IMG/VR virus record: IMGVR_UViG_3300032268_000694
Coordinates: 1-64,000 of that record
Length of the DNA stretch: 64,000 bases
Source of the DNA: a virus
Direction: 5' to 3' (one strand)
Shown: piece after piece, positions 10,637 to 32,742 of the stretch
How positions within the stretch are numbered: position 1 is the stretch's first letter
Layout: each line of letters opens with the position of its first letter
Made by a program: the position numbers and the translations under genes
The notes under the pieces: generated by a model
Seen by the model: the letters and a program-made list of their open reading frames with translations, nothing else
What the model was told of the DNA's origin: nothing
Database searches by the model: none

Positions 10637-11734
10637 ATGGCGGTATATAAAATTTTTCCTGAAAAAAGTGCTACTATATATTCATTTTACCCAACACTAA
10701 ACACGGGTATTGATGAAATATTAGAAATTAGTACTTTTCAATCCATTGATGGGGGTAGTGAAGTATCACGTGCCCTAATTAAATTTCCATCTGATCAAAT
10801 AAACGATGTAATTCTTAATAAAGTATCTGGTAGTACATATGATACTTATCTTAAAGGATATTTAGCTAACGCTTCAGAAATTCCTTTAAATTACACTTTA
10901 TTTTCTTTCCCATTAGCTGCTGATTGGAATCAAGGTACAGGAAGATTAGGTAATGTCCCTACAACAACAGATGGTGTTAGTTGGAAATACACAGATCAAT
11001 CAGGAAGCACAGCATGGACTGCTGGTAGTTTTCCTGGTGGTGTAACAGGATCTTATACTGGGTCAAATGTGGGTGGTGGTACTTGGTTAACTAATGTTAA
11101 CTATGCTTCATCTCAATCATTTACTAATATTTCAACAAAAGACATTGAGATAAAAGTAACTAATACTGTTGCAGCTTGGTATGGTAATACAATATCTAAC
11201 AATGGTTTTATTTTAAAACATTCATCATCTTTAGAATTTACGACTGCTTCTAAATTTGAAACTAAATACTTCTCAGCAAATACTCATACTATTTATCCTC
11301 CATATTTGGAAGTTAGATGGAATGATTTTTCATATAGCACAGGTTCATTAACAGTAGTTACATCTAGTTATTTTACACCAGTTATAAATAATAACAAAGA
11401 AGAATACCAACAAGACTCAATTCAACGCTTCAGAGTTGCTGTTAGAGGTTTATATGCTCCAACTGCATTTAGAACCCTATTAAGTTATGGTAACACATAT
11501 GCTTTACCTACTTCTTCATATTGGTCAATAAAAGATTTGGATACTGAAGAAATGGTCGTAGATTACGATACGTCATATACTAAAATTAGTTGTGATAGTG
11601 TTAGTAATTATTTTGATGTATACATGAATGGCCTAGAACCAGAACGTTACTATAAATTACTTATTAAAACTATTCTTCCAACTAAGGAGGTAATAGTAAA
11701 CGATAAAGATTACATTTTTAAAGTTGTAAGATAA
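10637..11734 (+). CDS. Tail/baseplate protein with DNRLRE-like domain
   Basis: A 365-residue beta-rich protein. The N-terminus (KSATIYSFYPTLNTGIDEIL) and the following E-V-S-R-A-L-I-K-F-P resemble DNRLRE-type beta-sandwich modules, which often bind polysaccharide. A Gly/Ser/Thr-rich centre and a C-terminal beta domain (near residues 255-365) follow. In this context it is probably a virion protein of the baseplate periphery, possibly contacting host glycans. The domain match is by eye and moderately sure. Confidence 0.6.
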   Translation: MAVYKIFPEKSATIYSFYPTLNTGIDEILEISTFQSIDGGSEVSRALIKFPSDQINDVILNKVSGSTYDTYLKGYLANASEIPLNYTLFSFPLAADWNQGTGRLGNVPTTTDGVSWKYTDQSGSTAWTAGSFPGGVTGSYTGSNVGGGTWLTNVNYASSQSFTNISTKDIEIKVTNTVAAWYGNTISNNGFILKHSSSLEFTTASKFETKYFSANTHTIYPPYLEVRWNDFSYSTGSLTVVTSSYFTPVINNNKEEYQQDSIQRFRVAVRGLYAPTAFRTLLSYGNTYALPTSSYWSIKDLDTEEMVVDYDTSYTKISCDSVSNYFDVYMNGLEPERYYKLLIKTILPTKEVIVNDKDYIFKVVR

Positions 11735-12066
11735 TGTCTCAAATCCCAGTACAGAAAACTGTATTTAATAAAGATAGTTTTGGTAGATTAATTAACACTC
11801 AATTTAGCCAATTACTAAATCAAACTGTAGAAGAAACTAATACTTTTACAGTAGATGATTTCTTTCAATTATATGAAGATTTATTTTATCAAATTCCTAA
11901 AGAAGGAGATACTAATTCTCATAGATATATTTTACAACGTGAAGCTGATTATTTAGGTGTTAGCATCAGTCAAGATGATATTCAAGCATTATTAAATGAA
12001 ATTACATCATTAAGACAACAGGTACTTGAATCACAACAAACAATAAACGAATTGACTAAGAAATAA
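11734..12066 (+). CDS. Small virion-type protein with coiled-coil end (110 aa)
   Basis: A globular N-terminal part (VQKTVFNKDSFGRLINTQFS) with an acidic TVDDFFQLYEDLFYQIP helix leads to a C-terminal coiled coil (LLNEITSLRQQVLESQQTIN). It overlaps both neighbours by 1 nt (TAATG junctions), so it is translationally coupled to the large baseplate protein that follows. It may be a partner or chaperone of that protein. No family name is secure. Confidence 0.6.
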   Translation: MSQIPVQKTVFNKDSFGRLINTQFSQLLNQTVEETNTFTVDDFFQLYEDLFYQIPKEGDTNSHRYILQREADYLGVSISQDDIQALLNEITSLRQQVLESQQTINELTKK

Positions 12067-15000
12067 TGGCAGATAATATTAAAATAATAGGCAATATATT
12101 AAATGAACAGCAGGTACCTCGTTATGATACTGCTGATACTAATTTACTTACTACTCAAACAATCCAAAAAGATTTTGGTTTAGTTAATGATTATATTGAA
12201 TATTTTGTTTATGATGGTGGTGAGAATTTATTAAATACAAACTATACTTATAGGGATTTTAAATCACCAAATACATCATACGTTAATCCAAAAACCAAAG
12301 GATTACCCATTATTGAAATTGATCCTGTTAAGGATTTACAAAATTTAGGATACACATCAGGTGAATTTAAAGTTCAATATAATCTATTTACTAATAAAAT
12401 TTCAAATCCTGATGCTGAGTTATTCTTAAAAGAAATATCAGCAGATAGAACTGAATTAAGGGTAGGATCTACTATTTTAACTAATGTACAAATTGAAAGT
12501 GGATCCTTAGAACTTATAAACGAGTATACTAATTCTTCTTACTTTGTAGATTATCTTTTAAATTTTAGTAATAATATTCAAGCAGTAGTTGTAAACGTTG
12601 CTTTAAATAAGGTAGAAAGTGGTTATGAAATATTATTTAAATTATACCAACCACTACCAGACGACATTCAAGAAAAAAGTACATTGTGGGTAGTACAGGA
12701 AAAATCAAATCCTTACTCTTTTGATATTAATTTAGATACATTAATAATACAAGCTCCTGGTCCTAAACTAAGGGGTCCTAATTTTAATATTGATATTCCA
12801 AATCAAAATAACATTGCTACATCATACCAAACATATACTAATTTAATTGATAGCGTTCAAAACGTATCTACATCTTCATATCAACAACTATTAAGTTTAA
12901 TTACATCACAAAATATTGATATAAATGTAGACTACACTGGTTTTACAAATTTTGTATTTTTTAGTTCTGCTAAACAGAGGGTTATTAATTTTTATGGTAA
13001 AATAAAAAAAATAGAAGATTATAAAACAAATATAGCTAAATATGCTGTATCTTCTTCTATATTCCCCAGCATGATTGCTGAATCAAATTTAGCAACAGCT
13101 AGTATTAATACCATTATAGCTCAGTTTGATGGATATGAACAATACTTATATTTTGAATCAAGTTCATATACATGGCCAAAAACAACTACTACTATTCCTT
13201 ACGTTTTAGCATCAACATCATCTGCTCAAACATGGTATAATGCTCTTACAGGTAGCGGTGAAAGTTATGATGATGATAATCAAAATAATTTAATATTTAC
13301 TTTACCTTCATTTATTAAAGATGATGATGATAATGACCCTTATATCACATTTCTTAATATGGTTGGTCATTATTTTGATAATATTTGGATTTTCTTACAA
13401 GCAGTAACTGATATTAATCTAGCAAATAACAACCTAGAAAAAGGCGTTTCTAAAGATTTAGTATATTACGTATTACAATCATTAGGAGTTAAATTATATA
13501 ATCAATACGGTAATTCAGACAATACTAATTTTTTAATTGGTACTAGTGGTAGTTCTAATTGGGACAATAATTTCACCTCTACTGGTTCCTATTTAAACGC
13601 TTTACCACGTAAAGATTTACTTGCTGAATCTTATAAACGTATTTATCATAACTTACCTTTGTTACTAAAAACAAAAGGTACAGCTTATGGTTTACAAACA
13701 TTAGTATCTACTTTTGGTATTACTGGTAGTGTATTACAAGTAAAAGAATATGGTGGTGATATCAAATCAGGATTATTAGATGAATTTAATAATGATAAAA
13801 TTAGAATTATATCTAGTAGTATAGTAAGTGGAAGTGTGTTATCTCCATTTATCAGTTTACAACAACAACCTACATCATCTACTCAATTTAGAACAAATGA
13901 TTTACACTATGTAGATATATCGTTTTCACCACAAGATAAGATTGATATATTTACTTCTGCTTCTATTGCTGCTTCAGCAAGCGCTACTTGGAGTTTAGAT
14001 AATTTTATTGGTGATCCTAGATATCAATATACTAATTCTTATCCTACACTTGTTACTGAAAAAAATACTTATTTATCTCCATTATCTGCTTCTATAGTAC
14101 CATATACTGGTTCTTCAGCTAGTGGATCTATTGGTGCAACTGATTATAATAGTTTTATTCGCTTAATTCAGTTTTTTGATAATTCATTATTTAAAATGTT
14201 GAAAGATTATGTTCCTGCAAGAGCTAATTTATCAACAGGTATTACTATTAGTTCTCCAATTTTAGAAAGAAATAAATGGGTTTTTGCAAATCCATCTTCT
14301 ACCTCTAAAATAGAAGTTGAAGAAGGAACTATTAATGGACCTTCTATTCAAACAGAATATACTGATCTCTATCAGGGTATTAATTATAATAACAAAGTAG
14401 CTTATTATGATGGTAATTTAACAGGAAGTGGAATTAATGTTCATAATTACTTTGCTAGTGGAAATATTAATCCTTATCTACAACCAACATCAAGCTTAAG
14501 TTCAGGTGATTTATATATATTTAATCATTCTGATTATAATGTGATGTTAAACAATGTTTCTAAAAGTTTAACGTCAAATAACAGACAAAATATTGAATAT
14601 ATTTTTGGAACAACACAAAGTATTTTATCACCAGTTGAATTACAGGATTCATATGAGTCTTTAAAAACACATCAATTATCAAGATATGATGGTATTAAAA
14701 TATCTAGTTTAGAATATAATAATTATAATGATGGAGATATATCATTTGGTAAAACAGCAACAATAGATAAAAACGTAAGTAAAATAGGTTTATTTTCTGA
14801 GGTAACAGAAAATATATATTTACCAAGACGTAATAATGCTATATTAAAATATTTAGTAGATATTGATGGTAATTTAACTGAACTTAATCTTCGTAATACA
14901 CATTGGGAAGAAGTTCAAAATACCTTTATAGCTGGAGATACAGGAAGTATTTCTCAATTTAATAGCCAATTATACTCTAATCAAAAACCTACTGATGGTG

Positions 15001-16439
15001 AAAAAATAATATTTGATAGTGGGTATACTTATTCTCCACTATTGTATTTTCCTTCTTGTAGTGTGCTTGGTTCTAATAGTATTTCGTTTCAAAACCAAAA
15101 AAACATATCCGCTTACTTAGCAACTGCTCAAAATTTAAGTTCATCTTATTTTGTAAGTGGAAGTACACCATTGGGATACCCAGTAACAATGAGTGCTGGT
15201 ATTGGAGGGACAAATGCTATTGTTAATATATTTAATTATCCAATAGATACACCATCTACCTATTTCAAACCAGGAGCATTAAATAGCCCACCAGCATATA
15301 CATCCTCAGAAACAGGACAATATAAAGTAAATGCTTCTATGGATATGAGTATTACTATGGCTTCTGGTAGTCATGCTACCTGGAGTTTAGAAATGTATAA
15401 AAATGGAGTATTTGAAGCTAGTTCATCACAACAAGCATTTTTTGGAAATATAACAGCTGACTGTAACTATTATACAGTTGTAAATACCTCAGACAACTTT
15501 TATGTTATTACATATACAGCTTGTAATGATGGAACAATATCGTATATAAATTTAGGTCCTTTTGATACAGTATCAGTTCCTTGTTCTAGAACTTATCCTG
15601 TTACAAGATATAGTGGTGGTGATAATGATGGAGGTATTGCAGGTCCTGAAGTAAACACAACTACTAACCCAGTTTGTGGTACATATACTATTCCGGGCAG
15701 TACTACTCAAAATCTAAACTTTAATATTGATAGAGGAACTAATAATTTTAATTATGTTTCTCTTACAAATACCCAGAAATTAACATTCCAATTAAGACTA
15801 TTAGGTATAAGTGATTTTAATAATTATACTGCTTCTCTTAATACTGGTAATTTATCTATTGGGTCATTAGCACTAAGCACAGGATATTCAGTTGTCAACT
15901 GCCCCTTTGTAGATACATCTTCAGCTGCAACATCATCAATTACATTTTCTTCTGAGGTATCTAGTTTTTACAATAGAGGATATGTATTTTCACCTAACCC
16001 AACATCTGGTTCTCAGAGCGGGTTATATGGTCTTTATAAAGATGTAGACTATACCTTTGACCCTAAAGAAAATGATGTAGTTATTTTATATTTATCTGAC
16101 AACAGTATATTAGAATATACTATTAATAGAGTTAGTGTAAACCCATCTACAAATAAATTAACATTACATCTTAATAATGATTTGTCTCAAACAGCAATAA
16201 CTAATTTAAATAATGGTACTTATAAAAGATTTTTATTATTATCAAGACAAAAAGACGAAACTAACGTTATATTAAACTTTATTAAACGTGAAGGTAAATC
16301 ATCAAATGGATTCTTAATACCTAAAAATATCAGTCAAACCGTATTGAATAATATTGATGTGATAACTAAAGAAGTAAAGCAAAAAATACTTGGAGACCAA
16401 CCAATAATTAACGATATTCAAGGTGGAACTTTCCCTTAA
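12066..16439 (+). CDS. Giant baseplate/tail structural protein (1457 aa)
   Basis: The largest gene in the window. The N-terminal part (residues 1-250: NYTYRDFKSPN, PIIEIDPVKDLQNLGY) is followed by a helical region (about 420-560) containing LPSFIKDDDDNDPYITFLNM and LPRKDLLAESYKRIYHNLPL, then KTKGTAYGLQTLVSTFGITG. The C-terminal half is Ser/Thr/Asn-rich and beta-like, as in receptor-facing proteins. Position and size suggest a peripheral wedge protein comparable in role to T4 gp7 or gp10, though I see no direct match to either. Cys residues cluster only in its last third. Confidence 0.65.
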   Translation: MADNIKIIGNILNEQQVPRYDTADTNLLTTQTIQKDFGLVNDYIEYFVYDGGENLLNTNYTYRDFKSPNTSYVNPKTKGLPIIEIDPVKDLQNLGYTSGEFKVQYNLFTNKISNPDAELFLKEISADRTELRVGSTILTNVQIESGSLELINEYTNSSYFVDYLLNFSNNIQAVVVNVALNKVESGYEILFKLYQPLPDDIQEKSTLWVVQEKSNPYSFDINLDTLIIQAPGPKLRGPNFNIDIPNQNNIATSYQTYTNLIDSVQNVSTSSYQQLLSLITSQNIDINVDYTGFTNFVFFSSAKQRVINFYGKIKKIEDYKTNIAKYAVSSSIFPSMIAESNLATASINTIIAQFDGYEQYLYFESSSYTWPKTTTTIPYVLASTSSAQTWYNALTGSGESYDDDNQNNLIFTLPSFIKDDDDNDPYITFLNMVGHYFDNIWIFLQAVTDINLANNNLEKGVSKDLVYYVLQSLGVKLYNQYGNSDNTNFLIGTSGSSNWDNNFTSTGSYLNALPRKDLLAESYKRIYHNLPLLLKTKGTAYGLQTLVSTFGITGSVLQVKEYGGDIKSGLLDEFNNDKIRIISSSIVSGSVLSPFISLQQQPTSSTQFRTNDLHYVDISFSPQDKIDIFTSASIAASASATWSLDNFIGDPRYQYTNSYPTLVTEKNTYLSPLSASIVPYTGSSASGSIGATDYNSFIRLIQFFDNSLFKMLKDYVPARANLSTGITISSPILERNKWVFANPSSTSKIEVEEGTINGPSIQTEYTDLYQGINYNNKVAYYDGNLTGSGINVHNYFASGNINPYLQPTSSLSSGDLYIFNHSDYNVMLNNVSKSLTSNNRQNIEYIFGTTQSILSPVELQDSYESLKTHQLSRYDGIKISSLEYNNYNDGDISFGKTATIDKNVSKIGLFSEVTENIYLPRRNNAILKYLVDIDGNLTELNLRNTHWEEVQNTFIAGDTGSISQFNSQLYSNQKPTDGEKIIFDSGYTYSPLLYFPSCSVLGSNSISFQNQKNISAYLATAQNLSSSYFVSGSTPLGYPVTMSAGIGGTNAIVNIFNYPIDTPSTYFKPGALNSPPAYTSSETGQYKVNASMDMSITMASGSHATWSLEMYKNGVFEASSSQQAFFGNITADCNYYTVVNTSDNFYVITYTACNDGTISYINLGPFDTVSVPCSRTYPVTRYSGGDNDGGIAGPEVNTTTNPVCGTYTIPGSTTQNLNFNIDRGTNNFNYVSLTNTQKLTFQLRLLGISDFNNYTASLNTGNLSIGSLALSTGYSVVNCPFVDTSSAATSSITFSSEVSSFYNRGYVFSPNPTSGSQSGLYGLYKDVDYTFDPKENDVVILYLSDNSILEYTINRVSVNPSTNKLTLHLNNDLSQTAITNLNNGTYKRFLLLSRQKDETNVILNFIKREGKSSNGFLIPKNISQTVLNNIDVITKEVKQKILGDQPIINDIQGGTFP

Positions 16440-16500: not shown

Positions 16501-17163
16501 ATGGCAATTTTAAATCCTACAACAGTAACTGTAGATGCAATATTAACCACGAAGGGCCGCGAATTATTGGCTCGTAACGATGGTTCATTTCAAATTACTC
16601 AATTCGCATTAGCTGATGATGAGATTGATTATACTTTATATAATCCTAATCACCCGTCAGGGTCTGCGTTCTATGGTGAAGCGATTGAAAAAACTCCTGT
16701 ATTAGAAGCTTTCCCTAATGAATCACAAATTATGCGTTACAAATTAGTAACTTTACCTCGTGGTACATCTAAATTACCAGTTATTAACCTTGGATATAAT
16801 ACAATTATATTACGCCAGGGTGCTTCATTAACAATTACTCCACAAACCTTAAATTATTTAGGTTCTACAAGTACATTTGAAGCAAATGGTTACACAGCTA
16901 CAATTGCTGACTCTCGTTTAGTATCTTCATTTACAGGTACAGGTATTACTTCAGCAACTCCTCCTGCAGGATTAAACACAACTACAGGAACTGTATTATC
17001 AGTAACTCAAATTGGTACTTCATTCACATTAACAGGTACAACAATTAATACATTATTTGGTTCTACTTTAACATCATTATCAACTACAATTACTGTAATT
17101 GGTAGAGATAGTGGTGCAAGAGTTACTATTCCTCTTAATATTCAAAAAGTATCAACAATCTAA
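16501..17163 (+). CDS. Tail/baseplate structural protein (220 aa)
   Basis: The N-terminal domain (VDAILTTKGRELLARNDGSF, then FALADDEIDYTLYNP) is of a type seen in virion proteins of T4-like environmental phages. The C-terminal half (about 120-220) is Thr/Ser-rich and beta-like, resembling an immunoglobulin-like domain. No enzymatic motif is visible. It lies 8 nt before another virion-type gene and shares that gene's Ser/Thr-rich style. Confidence 0.6.
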   Translation: MAILNPTTVTVDAILTTKGRELLARNDGSFQITQFALADDEIDYTLYNPNHPSGSAFYGEAIEKTPVLEAFPNESQIMRYKLVTLPRGTSKLPVINLGYNTIILRQGASLTITPQTLNYLGSTSTFEANGYTATIADSRLVSSFTGTGITSATPPAGLNTTTGTVLSVTQIGTSFTLTGTTINTLFGSTLTSLSTTITVIGRDSGARVTIPLNIQKVSTI

Positions 17164-17171
17164 TTTAACAT

Positions 17172-18173
17172 ATGTCATTCTCAAGATATAACACCGAAGA
17201 TTCAGTAATCAGCTCAGAAACCGTAGTACGTGGTTTATGGAGTGGAGATGCTAATAGTTTATCTACTTTTTTTACTCAAAGCGGATACACTGAATATTAT
17301 TTAGACGTATATAACCAAGACCCTACAACATCTGGTTCTTCAGTACAATTTTCAATCCAATATGGTAATTTAAATGGATCTGGATCTAATTTAATAAATT
17401 CAGGTATACCAAATGGGGGTTATACTCCATCTCGTGTAGTATATGGTGAATATAGAAATTTAGTTTTTGGAACTGAAACCCAAAACTTTAGCTTTGATAA
17501 TGGTACAACAACAGCAAAAGATATATTTGTAGTTAATGTTGCTCGTTCTCGTTATAAAGAATCTTTATTACCTGGTTCATTTAATTTAACTTTAAAAAGC
17601 GGTAGTAGTGTTATTTCATTAACTGATGATAGTGGAACTACAAGTTTAACTCGCTTTATTGGTGAAAATAAAGTATTCTATATTATTAGTGGAAGTAATG
17701 GTAATGCATATACTGCCGCTGCTTCATCTTCATACTATGGAATGATGTTTCCTGATCTTGATTTAGTTATATTAAACGCAACAGCTTCATCAACAGTATC
17801 TTTAACTAGTGTATTTGCCCCGTTAACATCTGCTACTTCATCAGTACAAAACAATCATTTAAAATTATTTAATTCTATTGTTACTGGATCTGCAACAGGT
17901 AGCTTTCAATTAAAATCATCAGAAACAGTATCTTCACGTTATTTCTTTACAAGAGTAAAAAATAGTGAATTTAACTATACTTCAAACCCATCTATTATAG
18001 ATGAAAATGGTAACTTATTATATACAACTTTAATTAATAATCCTCAAACATACGTTACTACAGTAGGTATGTATAATGATAATAATGAGTTATTAGCAGT
18101 AGCTAAGTTAAGTAAACCATTAACTAAGGACTTTACTAAAGAAGCTCTAATTAGAATCAAACTAGACTATTAA
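17172..18173 (+). CDS. Tail/baseplate protein with C-terminal adaptor domain
   Basis: A 333-residue protein starting MSFSRYNTEDSVISSETVVR. The middle is beta-rich and Ser/Gly-rich. The C-terminal segment (about 260-333) contains NSEFNYTSNPSI and VTTVGMYNDNNELLAVAKLS, ending in a beta strand. The same domain forms most of the small protein at 22023, so that gene is a paralog of this C-terminus. Domains of this type recur in tail proteins of marine phages. The role is probably structural, near the baseplate. Confidence 0.62.
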   Translation: MSFSRYNTEDSVISSETVVRGLWSGDANSLSTFFTQSGYTEYYLDVYNQDPTTSGSSVQFSIQYGNLNGSGSNLINSGIPNGGYTPSRVVYGEYRNLVFGTETQNFSFDNGTTTAKDIFVVNVARSRYKESLLPGSFNLTLKSGSSVISLTDDSGTTSLTRFIGENKVFYIISGSNGNAYTAAASSSYYGMMFPDLDLVILNATASSTVSLTSVFAPLTSATSSVQNNHLKLFNSIVTGSATGSFQLKSSETVSSRYFFTRVKNSEFNYTSNPSIIDENGNLLYTTLINNPQTYVTTVGMYNDNNELLAVAKLSKPLTKDFTKEALIRIKLDY

Positions 18174-18176
18174 TGC

Positions 18177-19673
18177 ATGTCTTCATTCAAAAAGTTAAGC
18201 AAATCAGACGTTACAGTAGTACCTTACAATGCTAACAAGCAATGGTTGTTAGACTACTGCCCTTATCCTACATCATCTGATCATTTAACTATTTATAAAG
18301 GCACAAATGTTACTGGTAGTTTTTCTTTAGACGATGATCCTGTTACTGAAAATCAATATGAAAGATTAGTTTACTCTCAAATTAATCAGTTATTTTATCA
18401 AGAATATACTACCTCCCTAGATACTAGTTCGTTAATGCTTTCACTTAACAACTACGAATCTGCATCTCAACAAAGACCAACTTCATCTTATTTCATATAC
18501 AACGACAGTAAGAATTTAATTACTTCCTTTCCTACAGGCTCTATGGAAGGAATTCGTGTATTAGCTGTTAATCAAGACATTTATGGTAATAAAGTATTAC
18601 CAAATCACTTTATTTTATCTTCATCTGCTTACTATGTAACTGATGATGGTTTTGGTAATTTATATGATACAAAATCCACAAAAAAGCATATTGGAAATAT
18701 GTTTTATGCTCACGGGTTAGGTATCATAACAGATCCAGATTATCAATTAATGTTTCCATTACCACCTTTAGCTAAAAATGATATTGCTTATTTTCTAGAT
18801 ACTGATTCTCCTAAAACTATCTTTCCATTAAATAATGACGATCCTAGAGGAGGAACATTAGTACCTAGTACTTTAACTTTATCTGGCAGTGCAGCTGATT
18901 TAGCATTTTGGACTAATAATGGTAATGGAACTGTTACCTTAAATTCATCAGTTGTTGGAACATATGTAATTTACTATACTGTAGAATCTAGTTATAGTTG
19001 TGGTAACATTCCAAGTAATAAAGGTAAAATAGCAGTAAATGTAAGTATAACATTAGTACAACCCACAACTAGTACAACTACAACCACCACAACACTAGCA
19101 CCAACAACTAGTACAACTACAACCACCACAACACTAGCACCAACAACAACTACAACAACAACAACAACTACAACAACAACGGAGCCACCAACAACCACTA
19201 CAACTACTAGTACTACTACAACAACTACTACGGCACCACCAACCACAACTACTAGTACAACTACAACTACAACAACTGAGGCGCCAACACAATTGATAAT
19301 AACTTACGCGGCCAATGGTGCTAATATAAGGTTAGAAGCAAATGCGTTAGCAACATTAACTGAAACCATTGAGTTCCAAGTTATTAAGTCAGAAAGCCAT
19401 ACCTATGATTCTGCTAATTGTAGTACAGGAGAAACAATACCAAATAATTTAAACACAACGCAAATAGCTACAATTGCTTCTGGTACTACATTTGGTGCAA
19501 GTGCAGATATAACAGCAATAGGTACACTACAATCTACTAAAATAGATTCAGTAACAATAGTTTGGTCAGATACAACATCAATTTTTGTATCTAGTAATAA
19601 TACTATTATTACATCACCAATAACAGGAAAGAATTATAAAGTAACTAATGTTGATATGTGTACTCCTCTTTAA
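18177..19673 (+). CDS. Virion protein with mucin-like threonine tract
   Basis: A 498-residue protein. The N-terminal domain (about residues 1-285: MSSFKKLSKSDVTVVPYNAN, ending with a beta sandwich) looks like a virion structural domain. Residues about 297-371 are almost only Thr with Ser, Ala, Pro and Leu (TTTSTTTTTTTLAP units). The last 125 residues form another beta-rich domain with two Cys. The tract should be an extended, flexible or glycosylated linker. The DNA of the tract is repetitive (exact 39-bp duplication at 19065) and so prone to length change. Three glycosyltransferase-like genes follow directly, suggesting O-glycosylation of the tract; this is inference. Confidence 0.7.
   Translation: MSSFKKLSKSDVTVVPYNANKQWLLDYCPYPTSSDHLTIYKGTNVTGSFSLDDDPVTENQYERLVYSQINQLFYQEYTTSLDTSSLMLSLNNYESASQQRPTSSYFIYNDSKNLITSFPTGSMEGIRVLAVNQDIYGNKVLPNHFILSSSAYYVTDDGFGNLYDTKSTKKHIGNMFYAHGLGIITDPDYQLMFPLPPLAKNDIAYFLDTDSPKTIFPLNNDDPRGGTLVPSTLTLSGSAADLAFWTNNGNGTVTLNSSVVGTYVIYYTVESSYSCGNIPSNKGKIAVNVSITLVQPTTSTTTTTTTLAPTTSTTTTTTTLAPTTTTTTTTTTTTTEPPTTTTTTSTTTTTTTAPPTTTTSTTTTTTTEAPTQLIITYAANGANIRLEANALATLTETIEFQVIKSESHTYDSANCSTGETIPNNLNTTQIATIASGTTFGASADITAIGTLQSTKIDSVTIVWSDTTSIFVSSNNTIITSPITGKNYKVTNVDMCTPL
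19065..19142 (+). repeat. Two perfect 39-bp tandem repeats in the Thr tract
   Basis: 19065-19103 and 19104-19142 are identical. The low-complexity ACA/ACT codon tract continues to about 19290. Confidence 0.9.
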
Positions 19674-19715
19674 TAAAGAATTTGGAGTTATAAATTAAGA
19701 TAATTATATTAGGTT

Positions 19716-20675
19716 ATGAAAAATTTACGTTATATTTGCGTTCAACCTCGCATATTATACTATGCATGGCAGGTTGAAGTAATGATTAATAATTTCATTA
19801 AACATGGAATCAACCCAAATAACATAGATATTCTTGTTGCTTGGAATCCTAATGATAAAACATCAGAACCAGAAAATATAGAAGTATGGAATAAATTAGC
19901 TTCACATTATAGTTCGGTTCGTTTCTTCTTTTATGAAGATACAAGACAACAACCCATATACTATATTTCATCTGTGCGCCCCAACATATTAAAGCAGCAT
20001 TTTAAAGCGCATCCTGAACTGGAATCTGAGGCGATCTTCTATCATGATTGTGATATTGTATTTTCTAAACCACCCGATTTTAATGCGTTTTTAAGCGATG
20101 ATATTTGGTATTTAAGCAACACAAATTCATATATTAATTATGATTACATCATATCTAAAGGACAAGATGTATATGATAAAATGTGTGAAATTACTGAAAT
20201 GCATCCAATTATACCACGTTTAATGAATTCAAATTCAGGTGGTGCTCAATATATAATGAAAAATATTGATTGGACATTCTGGGAATCTGTTGAACATGAT
20301 AGTGAAAAACTATTTAAAGAAATTACTGAATTAAATAATATTAAAAAAACAGCTGATCCTAACTATCATGAATTACAAATATGGTGTGCTGATATGTGGG
20401 CTGTGCTTTGGAATGGTTGGTTAGAAGGAAATGAAACTAAAGTAGTACCTGAAATGGATTTTAGTTGGGCTACTGATTCTATCAGTAGATGGAGTGAAAC
20501 TACTATATATCATAATGCAGGTGCAACTTGTGAAAGTCAAGGAACTTTTTATAAAGCATTATATATGAATACATTGCCTTATGATTTAGATATAGAAAAA
20601 TTTAATAAAGAAAAAAATTGTTATAATTACGTTTTAGAAATCCAAGAAACAGCTAAAAAATCATGTCTAATATAG
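19716..20675 (+). CDS. Glycosyltransferase-like protein (GT-A type)
   Basis: A 319-residue protein beginning MKNLRYICVQPRILYYAWQV. A GT-A-like nucleotide-sugar fold is suggested by the D-C-D motif in F-Y-H-D-C-D-I-V-F (about residue 113), a hydrophobic strand before it, and the acidic E-M-D-F-S-W and Y-H-N-A-G segments near the C-terminus. It probably transfers a sugar from a nucleotide donor in the cytoplasm. It follows the Thr-rich virion protein by 42 nt and overlaps the next glycosyltransferase by 13 nt. The exact family is unclear. Confidence 0.65.
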   Translation: MKNLRYICVQPRILYYAWQVEVMINNFIKHGINPNNIDILVAWNPNDKTSEPENIEVWNKLASHYSSVRFFFYEDTRQQPIYYISSVRPNILKQHFKAHPELESEAIFYHDCDIVFSKPPDFNAFLSDDIWYLSNTNSYINYDYIISKGQDVYDKMCEITEMHPIIPRLMNSNSGGAQYIMKNIDWTFWESVEHDSEKLFKEITELNNIKKTADPNYHELQIWCADMWAVLWNGWLEGNETKVVPEMDFSWATDSISRWSETTIYHNAGATCESQGTFYKALYMNTLPYDLDIEKFNKEKNCYNYVLEIQETAKKSCLI

Positions 20676-21418
20676 GAATTGTTATACTAGCAACTAATGC
20701 TTATTTTGTTTTAGGAATTAGATTTATTAAAAAATTTATGCACCATTATAAAGGTGATAAACACATTACTTTTCATTTCTACTCAGATACCAATCCAAAT
20801 CCATATCTTCAAGAAGAAATTGATGTAAGATTTTATCCTGAATCTCATTCTAATTGGGTTGAAGGTACAAATTCTAAATTTAAAAATGTTATTATATTAG
20901 AAAATAGTGACAGTGATTATCTATATTATTTTGACGCTGATACAAACATAAGTAAAGATTTTACTGAAGATTGGTTTCTAGGTGATTTAGTAGGTGGTGA
21001 ACATTTTGGAAATAGATCATTTTTATCTAATGGTAAAGGTTTTGATAGATTCCTACAGTCTAAAGCTTACGTACCTGAAGATAGCCAATTACCTTATACT
21101 TACCATTATGGTGCTTTTTTTGGAGGTAAAAAAGATCGTGTGATTGAATTTTGTAAAACATTAAGAGAATGGCAATTAGAAGATAAAAAAATACCATATG
21201 AACCTGGAGTAAATGATGAAAGTTATATTAACACTTATTTTCATTTTAATCCACCATATACAGTCCCTTGTGAAAATTTTATGTTTGACATTAGTGATAA
21301 AGGAGGGTTAGGAGAAACTAGAGATACATCTTTAAATATAGATCATCATAAAAAAACTTTATTAGAAAATAAAGATACATTATTTAATATACAAAACAAT
21401 ACAATTGTATGGTTATAA
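20663..21418 (+). CDS. GT6-like glycosyltransferase
   Basis: A 251-residue protein resembling family GT6 (the family of animal ABO and alpha-1,3-galactosyl transferases, also found in some bacteria and phages). It starts NIGIVILATNAYFVLGIRFI. The D-A-D motif is in Y-Y-F-D-A-D-T-N (about residue 91). Y-H-Y-G-A-F-F-G-G and later D-E-S-Y-I-N-T-Y-F match the family's acceptor-binding and catalytic segments. There is no membrane anchor, as expected for bacterial and phage forms. It overlaps both neighbouring glycosyltransferases, so the three are co-translated. Confidence 0.78.
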   Translation: MSNIGIVILATNAYFVLGIRFIKKFMHHYKGDKHITFHFYSDTNPNPYLQEEIDVRFYPESHSNWVEGTNSKFKNVIILENSDSDYLYYFDADTNISKDFTEDWFLGDLVGGEHFGNRSFLSNGKGFDRFLQSKAYVPEDSQLPYTYHYGAFFGGKKDRVIEFCKTLREWQLEDKKIPYEPGVNDESYINTYFHFNPPYTVPCENFMFDISDKGGLGETRDTSLNIDHHKKTLLENKDTLFNIQNNTIVWL

Positions 21419-22035
21419 ATTTTAAAGATATTTATTTTTACTACCTTAACTATGAAGGTTATACTGATAGAAGGATAGAAATGGATAATATGTTAAATGA
21501 TTGGGGTGTAAATTACGATAGAATACCAAATAATATAGATCTACCTTTAAGACAAGATAGAATAACAGTAGGTCATATAAAATTATTAGAACAAGCTATT
21601 ACTAATAATATTTTTCCATTTATTGTAATGGATGATGATATTAAACCTATTAATGACTTTCCAAAAGATATTAATATACCAAACGATACAGATATTATAT
21701 TTTTAGGAGGGAGTTTATACAATTGTGGCGGAATTAAACCCGATATGTACATAACACAACATAATGATGATTTTTATAGAGTCTATTATATGTTAGGCCT
21801 AACTCCTTCTCTTATCCCCAACCTAAAATCAGCACAATTATTATTAAAATTTTTACAAGATTCTTTACAAACTGGTGAATTTTGTGATATTGTCATAACC
21901 ATGCATAGTAAAGAATATATTTATCTTACCCCTAAAAACGGACCATACTTCTATCAAAATAATTATAATGAACCAGTAACTAAATTTTTATGGAAAGATA
22001 ATTTAGACAAATATTTATACCCATGCCAGCAGTAG
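21409..22035 (+). CDS. GT25-like glycosyltransferase
   Basis: A 208-residue protein with the pattern of family GT25 (LPS-type glycosyltransferases): Y-Y-L-N-Y-E-G-Y-T-D-R-R near the N-terminus, G-H-I-K-L-L-E-Q-A as the conserved helix, and F-I-V-M-D-D-D-I-K-P (about residues 71-80) as the acidic metal-binding motif. It is slightly shorter than typical members. It overlaps the upstream gene by 10 nt and the downstream small tail protein by 13 nt. This places it in one translational unit with a virion protein. Confidence 0.75.
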   Translation: MVINFKDIYFYYLNYEGYTDRRIEMDNMLNDWGVNYDRIPNNIDLPLRQDRITVGHIKLLEQAITNNIFPFIVMDDDIKPINDFPKDINIPNDTDIIFLGGSLYNCGGIKPDMYITQHNDDFYRVYYMLGLTPSLIPNLKSAQLLLKFLQDSLQTGEFCDIVITMHSKEYIYLTPKNGPYFYQNNYNEPVTKFLWKDNLDKYLYPCQQ

Positions 22036-22334
22036 TACACACAGGATCATTCACAACATCATTTAAAAATGAACATACTATCTACGAAAACGAAATTCGT
22101 TGTTTGGTAAAGGAAAGTGATTACAATTTATCATACAACCCAACATTAGTGTCAGGTAGTTATGAAAGTGGATCCTTAAAGAATTTTGCTACTGCTTCTA
22201 CTTTCTATACTTACGCTACAACATTAGGATTATACGATGATGATAATCAATTATTAGCTGTTGCTAAATTAGGTAAACCAATTATGATGTCACCTGATAC
22301 AGACATGACGTTTGTAGTCAAGTATGACGCATAA
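22023..22334 (+). CDS. Small tail protein, paralog of the 17172 C-terminus
   Basis: A 103-residue protein. The segment with SDYNLSYNPTL and the strand TTLGLYDDDNQLLAVAKLGK align with the C-terminal domain of the protein at 17172 (NSEFNYTSNPSI and VTTVGMYNDNNELLAVAKLS). It is therefore probably a free-standing copy of that tail or baseplate domain. It overlaps the GT25-like gene by 13 nt, which ties the glycosyltransferase block to the tail genes. Confidence 0.65.
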   Translation: MPAVVHTGSFTTSFKNEHTIYENEIRCLVKESDYNLSYNPTLVSGSYESGSLKNFATASTFYTYATTLGLYDDDNQLLAVAKLGKPIMMSPDTDMTFVVKYDA

Positions 22335-22348
22335 AATAAATTTTAGTT

Positions 22349-22792
22349 ATGTTACAAACATCTGATCCTCTATATGTTGAGGATTTAATTAACAATCCTG
22401 ATTTCAATATTGATGACTATTGTGGTTATGTCTATATGACATGTCATAATTTAACAGGTCGTAGCTATATTGGTAAAAAAGCATTTCAACATACCACAAC
22501 TAAAAAATTGGGTAAGAAAGAACTAGCTGAAATTCCTGTTACTAGAGGTAAACGCCCCACTAAAAAGACAGTAATTAAGGAAAGTGATTGGAAAACATAT
22601 TATGGTTCTAACACTGAAGTGAAGTCATTACCTAAAGACGAAATGGTTCGTATAGTATTGCGTTTATGCAAAACAAAAAAAGAACTAACATACTACGAAA
22701 CAAAATTCCTATTTGATTATAACGTGTTGGAAAACGACATTTATATGAATGATAATATATTAGGTAAATTCTATCGAAAAGACTTGTTATAG
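22349..22792 (+). CDS. GIY-YIG-like endonuclease
   Basis: A 147-residue protein. C-G-Y-V-Y-M-T-C-H-N-L-T-G-R-S-Y-I-G-K-K fits a GIY-YIG core in which the first motif is degenerate (GYVY) and the second is YIG. It is followed by the S-D-W-K-T-Y-Y-G-S segment and the helix ending KTKKELTYYETKFLF, whose Glu could be the metal ligand. Such small proteins are frequent in T4-like phages and are candidate DNA nucleases; it may be free-standing and homing-related. It precedes the primase gene. Activity is inferred. Confidence 0.65.
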   Translation: MLQTSDPLYVEDLINNPDFNIDDYCGYVYMTCHNLTGRSYIGKKAFQHTTTKKLGKKELAEIPVTRGKRPTKKTVIKESDWKTYYGSNTEVKSLPKDEMVRIVLRLCKTKKELTYYETKFLFDYNVLENDIYMNDNILGKFYRKDLL

Positions 22793-24563: not shown

Positions 24564-25268
24564 GTGAAAAATAACCAATTTACTATAGTCATTCCTTGCA
24601 AAAACGAAGGCATAAACATATATGATTGTTTAGGATTCATTTGTAAACAAAAAGGAATAGGAAAAACTAGAGTTATCATTGCTGATAGTTCTGACGATAA
24701 AGAATCATTACATTGGTTATATAAAGCTAAAATAGATTTTAAATATTTTCTTAATATAGAAATTATTAAAGGGGGGTATCCAGCTAAAGCACGCCTTAAA
24801 GGTTCGAAATTAGTTGATACCCCTTATATATTATTTTTAGATGCTGATATAATGTTACTACATGATAAATTATTATATAATATACTAAATTTTAAGTTAG
24901 ATTTATTAACAGTACCTTTTCAAACTGAAAAAGGATGGAATTGGGTATTTCGTGTATTCGATATATTTCAAAACTTAAGTATAAAATTAGGTACACCATT
25001 TGCCGTAGGTGGTTTTCAATATTGGAATACTCAAAAATATTGGAAATTAGGAGGATATAAAGCAGATGAATTATTTGCAGAAGATTATTCATTGTCATCT
25101 AAAGTAAAACCACATCGTTTTCAAATATATAAAACAAAAAGTATATTTACATCAGCAAGACGTTTCAAAAAGAAAGGTATTGGTTATATGTTTTGGATTA
25201 TGATTAAAAGCTATATTAATCGAAATAATCCAGAATTCTTTAAACATCACCATAACTATTGGAACTAA
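24564..25268 (+). CDS. Family 2 glycosyltransferase
   Basis: A 234-residue GT2 protein, started at GTG directly after a late-type box. The N-terminus F-T-I-V-I-P-C-K-N-E-G is the usual nucleotide-sugar strand. I-L-F-L-D-A-D-I-M (about residue 90) is the metal-binding D-A-D, and F-A-V-G-G-F-Q-Y-W then F-A-E-D-Y-S-L provide the acceptor loop and catalytic ED motif. A basic C-terminal amphipathic region (ARRFKKKGIGYMFWIMIKSY) may touch the membrane. It is co-transcribed with a membrane protein and an LpxH-like phosphoesterase, suggesting action on a host lipid-linked glycan. Confidence 0.8.
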   Translation: MKNNQFTIVIPCKNEGINIYDCLGFICKQKGIGKTRVIIADSSDDKESLHWLYKAKIDFKYFLNIEIIKGGYPAKARLKGSKLVDTPYILFLDADIMLLHDKLLYNILNFKLDLLTVPFQTEKGWNWVFRVFDIFQNLSIKLGTPFAVGGFQYWNTQKYWKLGGYKADELFAEDYSLSSKVKPHRFQIYKTKSIFTSARRFKKKGIGYMFWIMIKSYINRNNPEFFKHHHNYWN

Positions 25269-26292: not shown

Positions 26293-26299
26293 TATTTAT
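26292..26299 (+). promoter_or_regulatory. Late-type box ATATTTAT
   Basis: The box ends 8 nt before the ATG at 26308 and begins at the stop codon of the upstream gene. It opens the tagged-protein block. Confidence 0.5.
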
Positions 26300-32091: not shown

Positions 32092-32742
32092 ATGATATAT
32101 TATTCAGATTATGATTTTGTTTGTGTTGATATTCTTAAAAATGGTTCTACTGGCTTAAGAAAAATATTTAAATTTGTTTTAGGAAGAGAATCAGATGAAT
32201 TATTTTTTATACGCAAACCTCAAATACACATAACAGTAGTTAGAAATCCATATAAAAGATTAATAACACAATTTTATCACATAAATAGAATCCAACTTTG
32301 GAAAGACTTTAAACATACTGTACATCATCCTTTTTTTAAAAAGTGGGTTAAAGAAATATATGAAGATGGATATAAGGGAAATGATAGTCATTTATATAAT
32401 CAAACCCACTTTTTACAATTTTATGAAAACTCAATAGATTATAAAATATTTAAATTAGAAGAATTAGTTGCACATGAATTATTCTTTTTTTTAGATTTAA
32501 CAGAAGAATATAAGATTGAAATAGATAATGAATATAAAAAAATAATAGATGAATTAGAAAAAAATACTCACCATGCTACTAATAATTTAATACAAGGAGT
32601 TTGGCAAAGCTATTATGATGTTGAAACTATTGAAATATGTAACAAATATTATGCAAATGATTTTGTAGCATTTAATTATGAAATTTTTGAACCTGAAGAA
32701 TTTGAACCTATATATTTTGAATACAAACCAAAACTGATTTAA
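32092..32742 (+). CDS. Sulfotransferase-like protein
   Basis: A 216-residue protein with the two PAPS-binding signatures of the sulfotransferase family: K-N-G-S-T-G (about residues 16-21, the 5'-phosphosulfate loop) and V-V-R-N-P-Y-K-R-L (about 53-61, the 3'-phosphate site). The C-terminal Y-A-N-D-F-V-A-F-N-Y matches the end of family-2 carbohydrate sulfotransferases. It probably transfers sulfate to a glycan. The substrate may be host surface polysaccharide or a phage glycan made by the glycosyltransferases here; that is inference. Confidence 0.72.
   Translation: MIYYSDYDFVCVDILKNGSTGLRKIFKFVLGRESDELFFIRKPQIHITVVRNPYKRLITQFYHINRIQLWKDFKHTVHHPFFKKWVKEIYEDGYKGNDSHLYNQTHFLQFYENSIDYKIFKLEELVAHELFFFLDLTEEYKIEIDNEYKKIIDELEKNTHHATNNLIQGVWQSYYDVETIEICNKYYANDFVAFNYEIFEPEEFEPIYFEYKPKLI

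Follow-up and report, generated by a model that had tools for sequence, protein, structure and literature searches.

Poly-threonine tracts and phrog_4417 glycosyltransferases: a predicted virion O-glycosylation system in phages

In the mycobacteriophages Che8, Corndog and Myrna, phage-encoded enzymes are reported to glycosylate the C-termini of the capsid and tail-tube proteins, and Che8 has a cassette of three glycosyltransferase genes, one of them for a GT25 enzyme, as described in two articles (PMC12363180, PMC12619734, citing Freeman et al. 2023). Here, a locus was analysed in the first 64,000 nucleotides (the window) of the 119,275-bp viral record IMGVR_UViG_3300032268_000694 (IMG/VR), where the gene of a tail-region protein with a threonine (Thr) tract is followed by three glycosyltransferase genes, designated GT1, GT2 and GT3. 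The likeness to the mycobacteriophage system lies in the pairing of phage glycosyltransferases with the C-termini of capsid or tail-tube proteins; here, the glycan is predicted from the genes alone. Unlike this locus, Che8 keeps its glycosyltransferase genes at a distance from the structural genes, and no Thr tract is present in its capsid and tail proteins. GT1 has no detectable homology to Che8 gp108–gp110 (hhalign probabilities <1%; different PHROGs) and was rejected as a homologue of these enzymes. Nothing direct on poly-Thr or phrog_4417-type virion glycosylation was found in the open-access literature, an absence that is no proof of novelty; the enzyme family and its poly-Thr substrate appear to be new, virion glycosylation itself being known from mycobacteriophages.

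We read the cassette as a virion O-glycosylation unit in which GT1 would act on poly-Thr and GT2 and GT3 would extend the glycan (probability roughly 0.7). Probably, too, phrog_4417, the family of GT1, is a widespread phage polypeptide O-glycosyltransferase family with poly-Thr on the outside of virions as its substrate. Such a 'tract plus enzyme' mucin system would serve capsid, tail-tube or appendage proteins of unrelated phages, in some of which the tract is frame-shifted so that only a fraction of the subunits would carry it.

The Thr tract and GT1

The tract comprises 74 residues (55 Thr, 4 Ser, 7 Pro, 4 Ala, 2 Leu and 2 Glu), in agreement with an earlier reading of the sequence (the original prediction), which had noted a Thr-rich stretch of about 75 residues in a virion-type protein. 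The product is called a tail protein by its position in a T4-like genome, 3' of baseplate wedge genes of the gp25 and gp6 types, and the assignment is thus putative. Runs of six Thr codons occur in the record only at 19074-19276; none was found on the opposite strand of the whole record and none with a reversed control pattern, so the tract is not a chance occurrence. Its Thr codons are mixed as in the rest of the genome (ACA 29, ACT 18, ACC 6, ACG 2) and no pure trinucleotide run is longer than 5 units, which disfavours plain trinucleotide slippage. The general O-glycosylation motif of host Bacteroidota is D-S/T-A/I/L/V/M/T. This motif is absent from tract residues 297–370 and is present in the tail protein only at residues 411, 457 and 465, which fits a phage-specific glycosylation route. 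Eukaryotic mucin-type domains offer a comparison of function, as they also have a long Thr/Ser/Pro tract as a dense O-glycan acceptor, here putative; they differ in that the phage tract is almost pure Thr and assembly is cytoplasmic, and no homology is claimed.

GT1 matches the phrog_4417 profile over its full length (positions 2–291 of 293, E 1.5e-61). The family, annotated in PHROGs as 'unknown function', includes Lactococcus 'prophage pi2 protein 34', bIL285 orf45 and phiFL1A gp51; GT1 is a member by profile, and the association with tracts is proposed here. No Pfam family matched GT1 significantly, nor did any PDB sequence match the profile of its family. An AlphaFold2 model (predicted local distance difference test 95.7, predicted template-modelling score 0.92) has GT-A enzymes as its Foldseek neighbours (UGGT, WbbM, glycogenin, COLGALT1 and α-1,3-galactosyltransferase), and residues Asp111 and Asp113, which form a DxD-type motif, are invariant in the family. 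On this modelling GT1 is confidently assigned as a GT-A fold glycosyltransferase, which bears out the GT-A-like call made previously for the first gene of the cassette.

Co-occurrence of GT1 and poly-Thr

GT1 relatives were drawn from IMG/VR, GTDB genomes and INPHARED. A tract was defined as at least six consecutive Thr residues, or 13 of 14 Thr/Ser residues, within 3 kb of GT1. A tract on the same strand was found at 100 of 131 loci (IMG/VR 51/76, GTDB 35/39, INPHARED 14/16), against none of the 131 on the opposite strand and one of 82 controls lacking GT1. The GT1-bearing loci come from Bacteroidota, Bacillota and one Actinomycetota phage. Because relatedness inflates the P value, GT1 was clustered by identity; tracts are held by 35 of the 41 clusters formed at 70% identity and by 15 of the 20 formed at 60%. 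Each of the five 60% clusters without a tract consists of one sequence; three of these come from metagenome-assembled bacterial genomes and two from the phages ENFP1 and LP65. These two are the most divergent phage members examined, and their upstream proteins have variant Thr-rich repeats (TTVAP; TTTETQTQTQ).

Two further samples were chosen independently of GT1. Among 15 IMG/VR relatives of the N-terminal domain of the tail protein, those with a near-pure Thr/Ser tract and enough downstream sequence (L002-L005, L007, L014, L016) have GT1 directly downstream; in L006 the tract sits in the next open reading frame (ORF). Five relatives (L008, L009, L011, L012, L015) carry Pro-interrupted repeats, and GT1 is found nowhere in these records. 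No discordant case occurs among the relatives long enough to judge (L010 and L013 end too early). In L010, a second, inverted copy of the tail protein with a Thr tract lies at the contig end (9437-10393, minus strand) and is probably an assembly artefact. The other sample consisted of 80 contigs selected only by the family of ORF 16501-17163. With at least 5 kb downstream (48 contigs), three have tract and GT1, 45 have neither and none is discordant (Fisher 5.8e-5); in all 80, two have GT1 without a tract and one has a tract at the contig end without GT1. The predicted co-occurrence of Thr tracts and cassette glycosyltransferases across phages stands for GT1, which tracks the tract, and fails for GT2 and GT3, which are exchangeable with other glycan-modifying genes.

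In Bacillota phages the tract lies at the extreme C-terminus of the major capsid or major tail protein, often both (phiFL1A, EfsPF36, bIL285, 1706, CHPC836, R3.3), and GT1 adjoins only one of the two genes, which are 2–3 kb apart. In matched phages, 14 of 16 with GT1 have a tract and the remaining two carry variant Thr-rich repeats. In seven phages that have a homologous major tail protein but lack GT1 (checked on whole records), this protein carries no tract; two of the seven have a single match to six ACN codons elsewhere in the genome, at the DNA level only. In phages filed as Coetzeevirus, the capsid C-terminal tract is found only in the GT1-bearing Lacticaseibacillus phage R3.3, in contrast to phiJL-1 and Bassarid. 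At least two frames with six-Thr runs were present in 36 of 54 records, with GT1 adjacent to one only, which argues for action of GT1 in trans rather than hitch-hiking. The last Thr run lies no more than 30 residues from the frame end in 89 of 96 such frames.

Some tracts are out of frame with the structural gene. The major tail protein of Staphylococcus phages RQ1 and SA2 and of Arcanobacterium phage TPWB06 has a CCC-TAA end with a long Thr frame behind it at +1, and in Planchet and nattely the capsid genes are followed by a Thr frame at -1. By sequence, the arrangement looks like programmed frameshifting that would decorate a fraction of the subunits. Bacillus phage 049ML001, in which GT1 is absent, has a fibronectin type III (FN3)-like extension at +1 behind a CCC-TAA end, annotated as a two-piece tail protein. 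The stop positions of these tail and capsid genes are among the entries of Table 1. Since the same kind of end precedes this extension, the tract appears to stand in for a surface-decoration domain. The likeness to the immunoglobulin (Ig)-like/FN3 decoration domains of phage major tail proteins is thus in the +1 frame, the difference being that the added part is a poly-Thr tail and not a folded domain; the shift is putative.

Proposed mechanism and alternatives

GT2 was matched by Pfam GT6 (E 5.6e-11, 42.2 bits, cut-off 25) and by Bacteroides ovatus GT6 (BoGT6a; PDB entry 4ayj; E 3.5e-10, alignment over residues 3–201), and the second gene is thus GT6-like as predicted. It belongs with BoGT6a and the blood-group A/B enzymes; its acceptor would be the virion O-glycan. 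GT3 belongs to phrog_24091, a phage family. The GT25-like call for this third gene is retained only as a weak similarity: PF01755 (GT25) was matched by two of nine family members (best E 0.016), GT3 itself gave no Pfam GT25 match and its hhalign comparison with Che8 gp110 was not significant. The gene overlaps of 10–13 nt and the small tail ORF overlapping the last gene are as described before (GT1/GT2 13 nt, GT2/GT3 10 nt, GT3/small ORF 13 nt).

From the computed tract, enzyme families, fold, gene order and co-occurrence, a course can be proposed in which the transfer, the order of the enzymes and the nature of the sugars are predictions. GT1 would use a nucleotide sugar in the cytoplasm to place first sugars on Thr (and Ser) residues of poly-Thr in the newly made virion protein, and GT2 and GT3 would then add more. 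The product would be a mucin-like glycosylated segment between the Ig-like and C-terminal domains of a tail appendage. GT1 would stay with its substrate, and the swappable genes behind it (glycosyltransferases, acyltransferase, methyltransferases) would vary the finished glycan between related phages. A plausible benefit is a hydrated brush, resistant to proteases, that would mask the particle or affect its adsorption.

Two observations point to GT1 for the first step. GT2 (GT6) homologues mostly have a tract and GT1 immediately upstream, and the four GT6 homologues without GT1 have no tract, for which reason GT6 was rejected as the tract enzyme. PF00535 (GT2-type) and PF00534 (GT4-type) enzymes are absent from 11 GT1-bearing phage records. 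Together these put GT1 first among the candidates for the protein-acting step, with the other enzymes as candidates for extension. Among the tail relatives the slot after GT1 varies: it may be empty or contain GT2-family or GT32-type enzymes, methyltransferases or a hexapeptide acyltransferase. It is possible, if doubtful, that GT1 modifies the tract and that GT2 and GT3 act on another glycan, of the host or of another virion protein, sharing only their position with it. This variability, the GT6 genes without GT1 and the compact phages in which GT1 stands alone favour such a division; the overlap of the genes right behind GT1 and the GT1 and tract upstream of most GT6 relatives speak against it. 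The claim that the cassette builds an O-linked glycan on the virion has, as a prediction, withstood every computational test run in its GT1–tract part, and is weaker for GT2 and GT3, which do not track the tract.

Phage glycosyltransferases often act on host glycans, and the enzymes might instead modify the host surface (lipopolysaccharide, capsule or a wall polymer), for example in a superinfection block, having been inserted as a moron beside the tail gene with the tract as an unmodified linker. Prochlorococcus phage P-SSM2 has an adjacent GT6/GT3-like pair in a sugar-metabolism cluster without GT1, which speaks for this reading. We regard it as unlikely, because GT1 predicts tracts on proteins that it does not adjoin, such as the capsid and tail-tube proteins of Bacillota phages, across unrelated gene orders and host phyla, and because matched relatives lose GT1 and tract together. 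It is very improbable that the tract is no more than a low-complexity linker or arose by slippage, with GT1 a bystander. A unit of 39–48 nt is indeed repeated in tandem in the tract, and GT1-free tail relatives carry other low-complexity linkers (TAP, TPTP) at the same place; against this stand the mixed codons, the long +1 Thr frames of the three phages named above and the Bacillota tracts, which track GT1 and, as C-terminal tails, link nothing.

Several observations weigh against a virion O-glycosylation unit built on GT1 and poly-Thr. The Foldseek TM-scores of GT1 are modest (about 0.45), so the fold leaves its acceptor type unproven, and the locus counts are inflated by relatedness. GT1 occurs without a tract in L046/G001 (54.8 kb), where the tail homologue ends before the tract position, and in some shorter fragments; L370, found among the GT6 homologue loci, has GT1 and no local tract, and in a freshwater group GT1 lies apart from the tracts. 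A glycosyltransferase without any Thr tract, which the original prediction had named as a refuting case, thus exists in L046/G001 and those fragments, but nine of the loci that lack a tract next to GT1 are on records of 40 kb or more, and eight of these nine records contain seven-Thr runs elsewhere (confirmed within open frames in G006 and G011). In a blind search of viral contigs for nine-Thr runs, GT1 was present at nine of 80 loci, so poly-Thr has other uses too.

If a GT1–poly-Thr system is correct, an orphan protein family of lactococcal, enterococcal, staphylococcal and lactobacillus phages and of many environmental Bacteroidota phages would gain a function. Virion glycosylation would then extend far outside the mycobacteriophages and be predictable from sequence, by a poly-Thr tract together with phrog_4417, and present genome annotation would be missing a factor in phage adsorption and surface properties. 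A poly-Thr peptide would be a simple substrate for testing the new O-glycosyltransferase family.

Locus and neighbouring genes

The T4-like genes of the record are terminase, gp20 portal, gp23 capsid and gp25- and gp6-type baseplate wedge. Located 3' of the baseplate genes are ORFs 10637-11734, 12066-16439, 16501-17163 and 17172-18173, followed by the tract protein. The structure model of this protein is confident only from about residue 200 and poor before, and its Ig/cadherin-like fold matches are weak. The features are listed in Table 1.

Table 1. Features of the locus and stop positions of structural genes in other records
Feature	Record	Positions	Strand	Description and basis
Tail-region protein, 498 aa	window	18177..19673	+	N-terminal domain, Ig-like β-sandwich ~aa 200–290, Thr tract, C-terminal domain of 127 aa; ORF, IMG/VR relatives, model
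Thr tract, proposed O-glycan acceptor	window	19065..19286	+	aa 297–370; 55 Thr and 4 Ser of 74
GT1, phrog_4417, proposed poly-Thr O-glycosyltransferase	window	19716..20675	+	GT-A fold, invariant D111 and D113, co-occurrence
GT2, glycosyltransferase family 6, proposed second-sugar enzyme	window	20663..21418	+	Pfam and 4ayj matches, coupling to GT1
GT3, phrog_24091, weakly GT25-like, proposed glycan extension enzyme	window	21409..22035	+	
Small tail ORF, 103 aa	window	22023..22334	+	Partial copy of ORF 17172-18173 C-terminus
Major tail protein stop	L022	5673		
Major tail protein stop	L347	4711		
Major tail protein stop	L021	5755		
Major tail protein stop	L356	5523		
Capsid protein stop	L025	5770		
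Capsid protein stop	L346	4738		

The small tail ORF shares 36% identity with the C-terminus of ORF 17172-18173 (E 7e-15) and, being conserved, marks where the variable slot ends on its 3' side. Immediately after it is a GIY-YIG SegE-like endonuclease gene (22349-22792), which is kept in relatives. A further GT2-family glycosyltransferase gene, outside the cassette at 24564-25268, gives the sole PF00535 match in the record and has a counterpart of 88% identity in L007. The sulfotransferase-like gene at 32092-32742 (PF03567, E 3.1e-8), proposed earlier to add sulfate to the glycan, was found in only one record, that of the closest relative, when 20 others were searched; the proposal is unsupported and the gene was rejected as a pathway member.

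Three GT1-bearing freshwater records contain very long ORFs (1400–2000 aa) of collagen-like TSGTSG/SGTSGT repeats (L329 8465-10279, L336 4843-6735, L339 2267-4009). From their composition, these could be another Thr/Ser-rich glycan acceptor.

In the window, nine otherwise unrelated ORFs on the plus strand, starting at 26299, 27060, 27771, 31116, 32754, 33640, 35074, 39895 and 46141, share a similar short amphipathic leader (MIKLxDILxE or MKxxELRxxIxExI). The leaders recall the capsid-targeting leaders of T4 internal proteins cut by the prohead protease and, by this analogy, the products may be packaged and injected.

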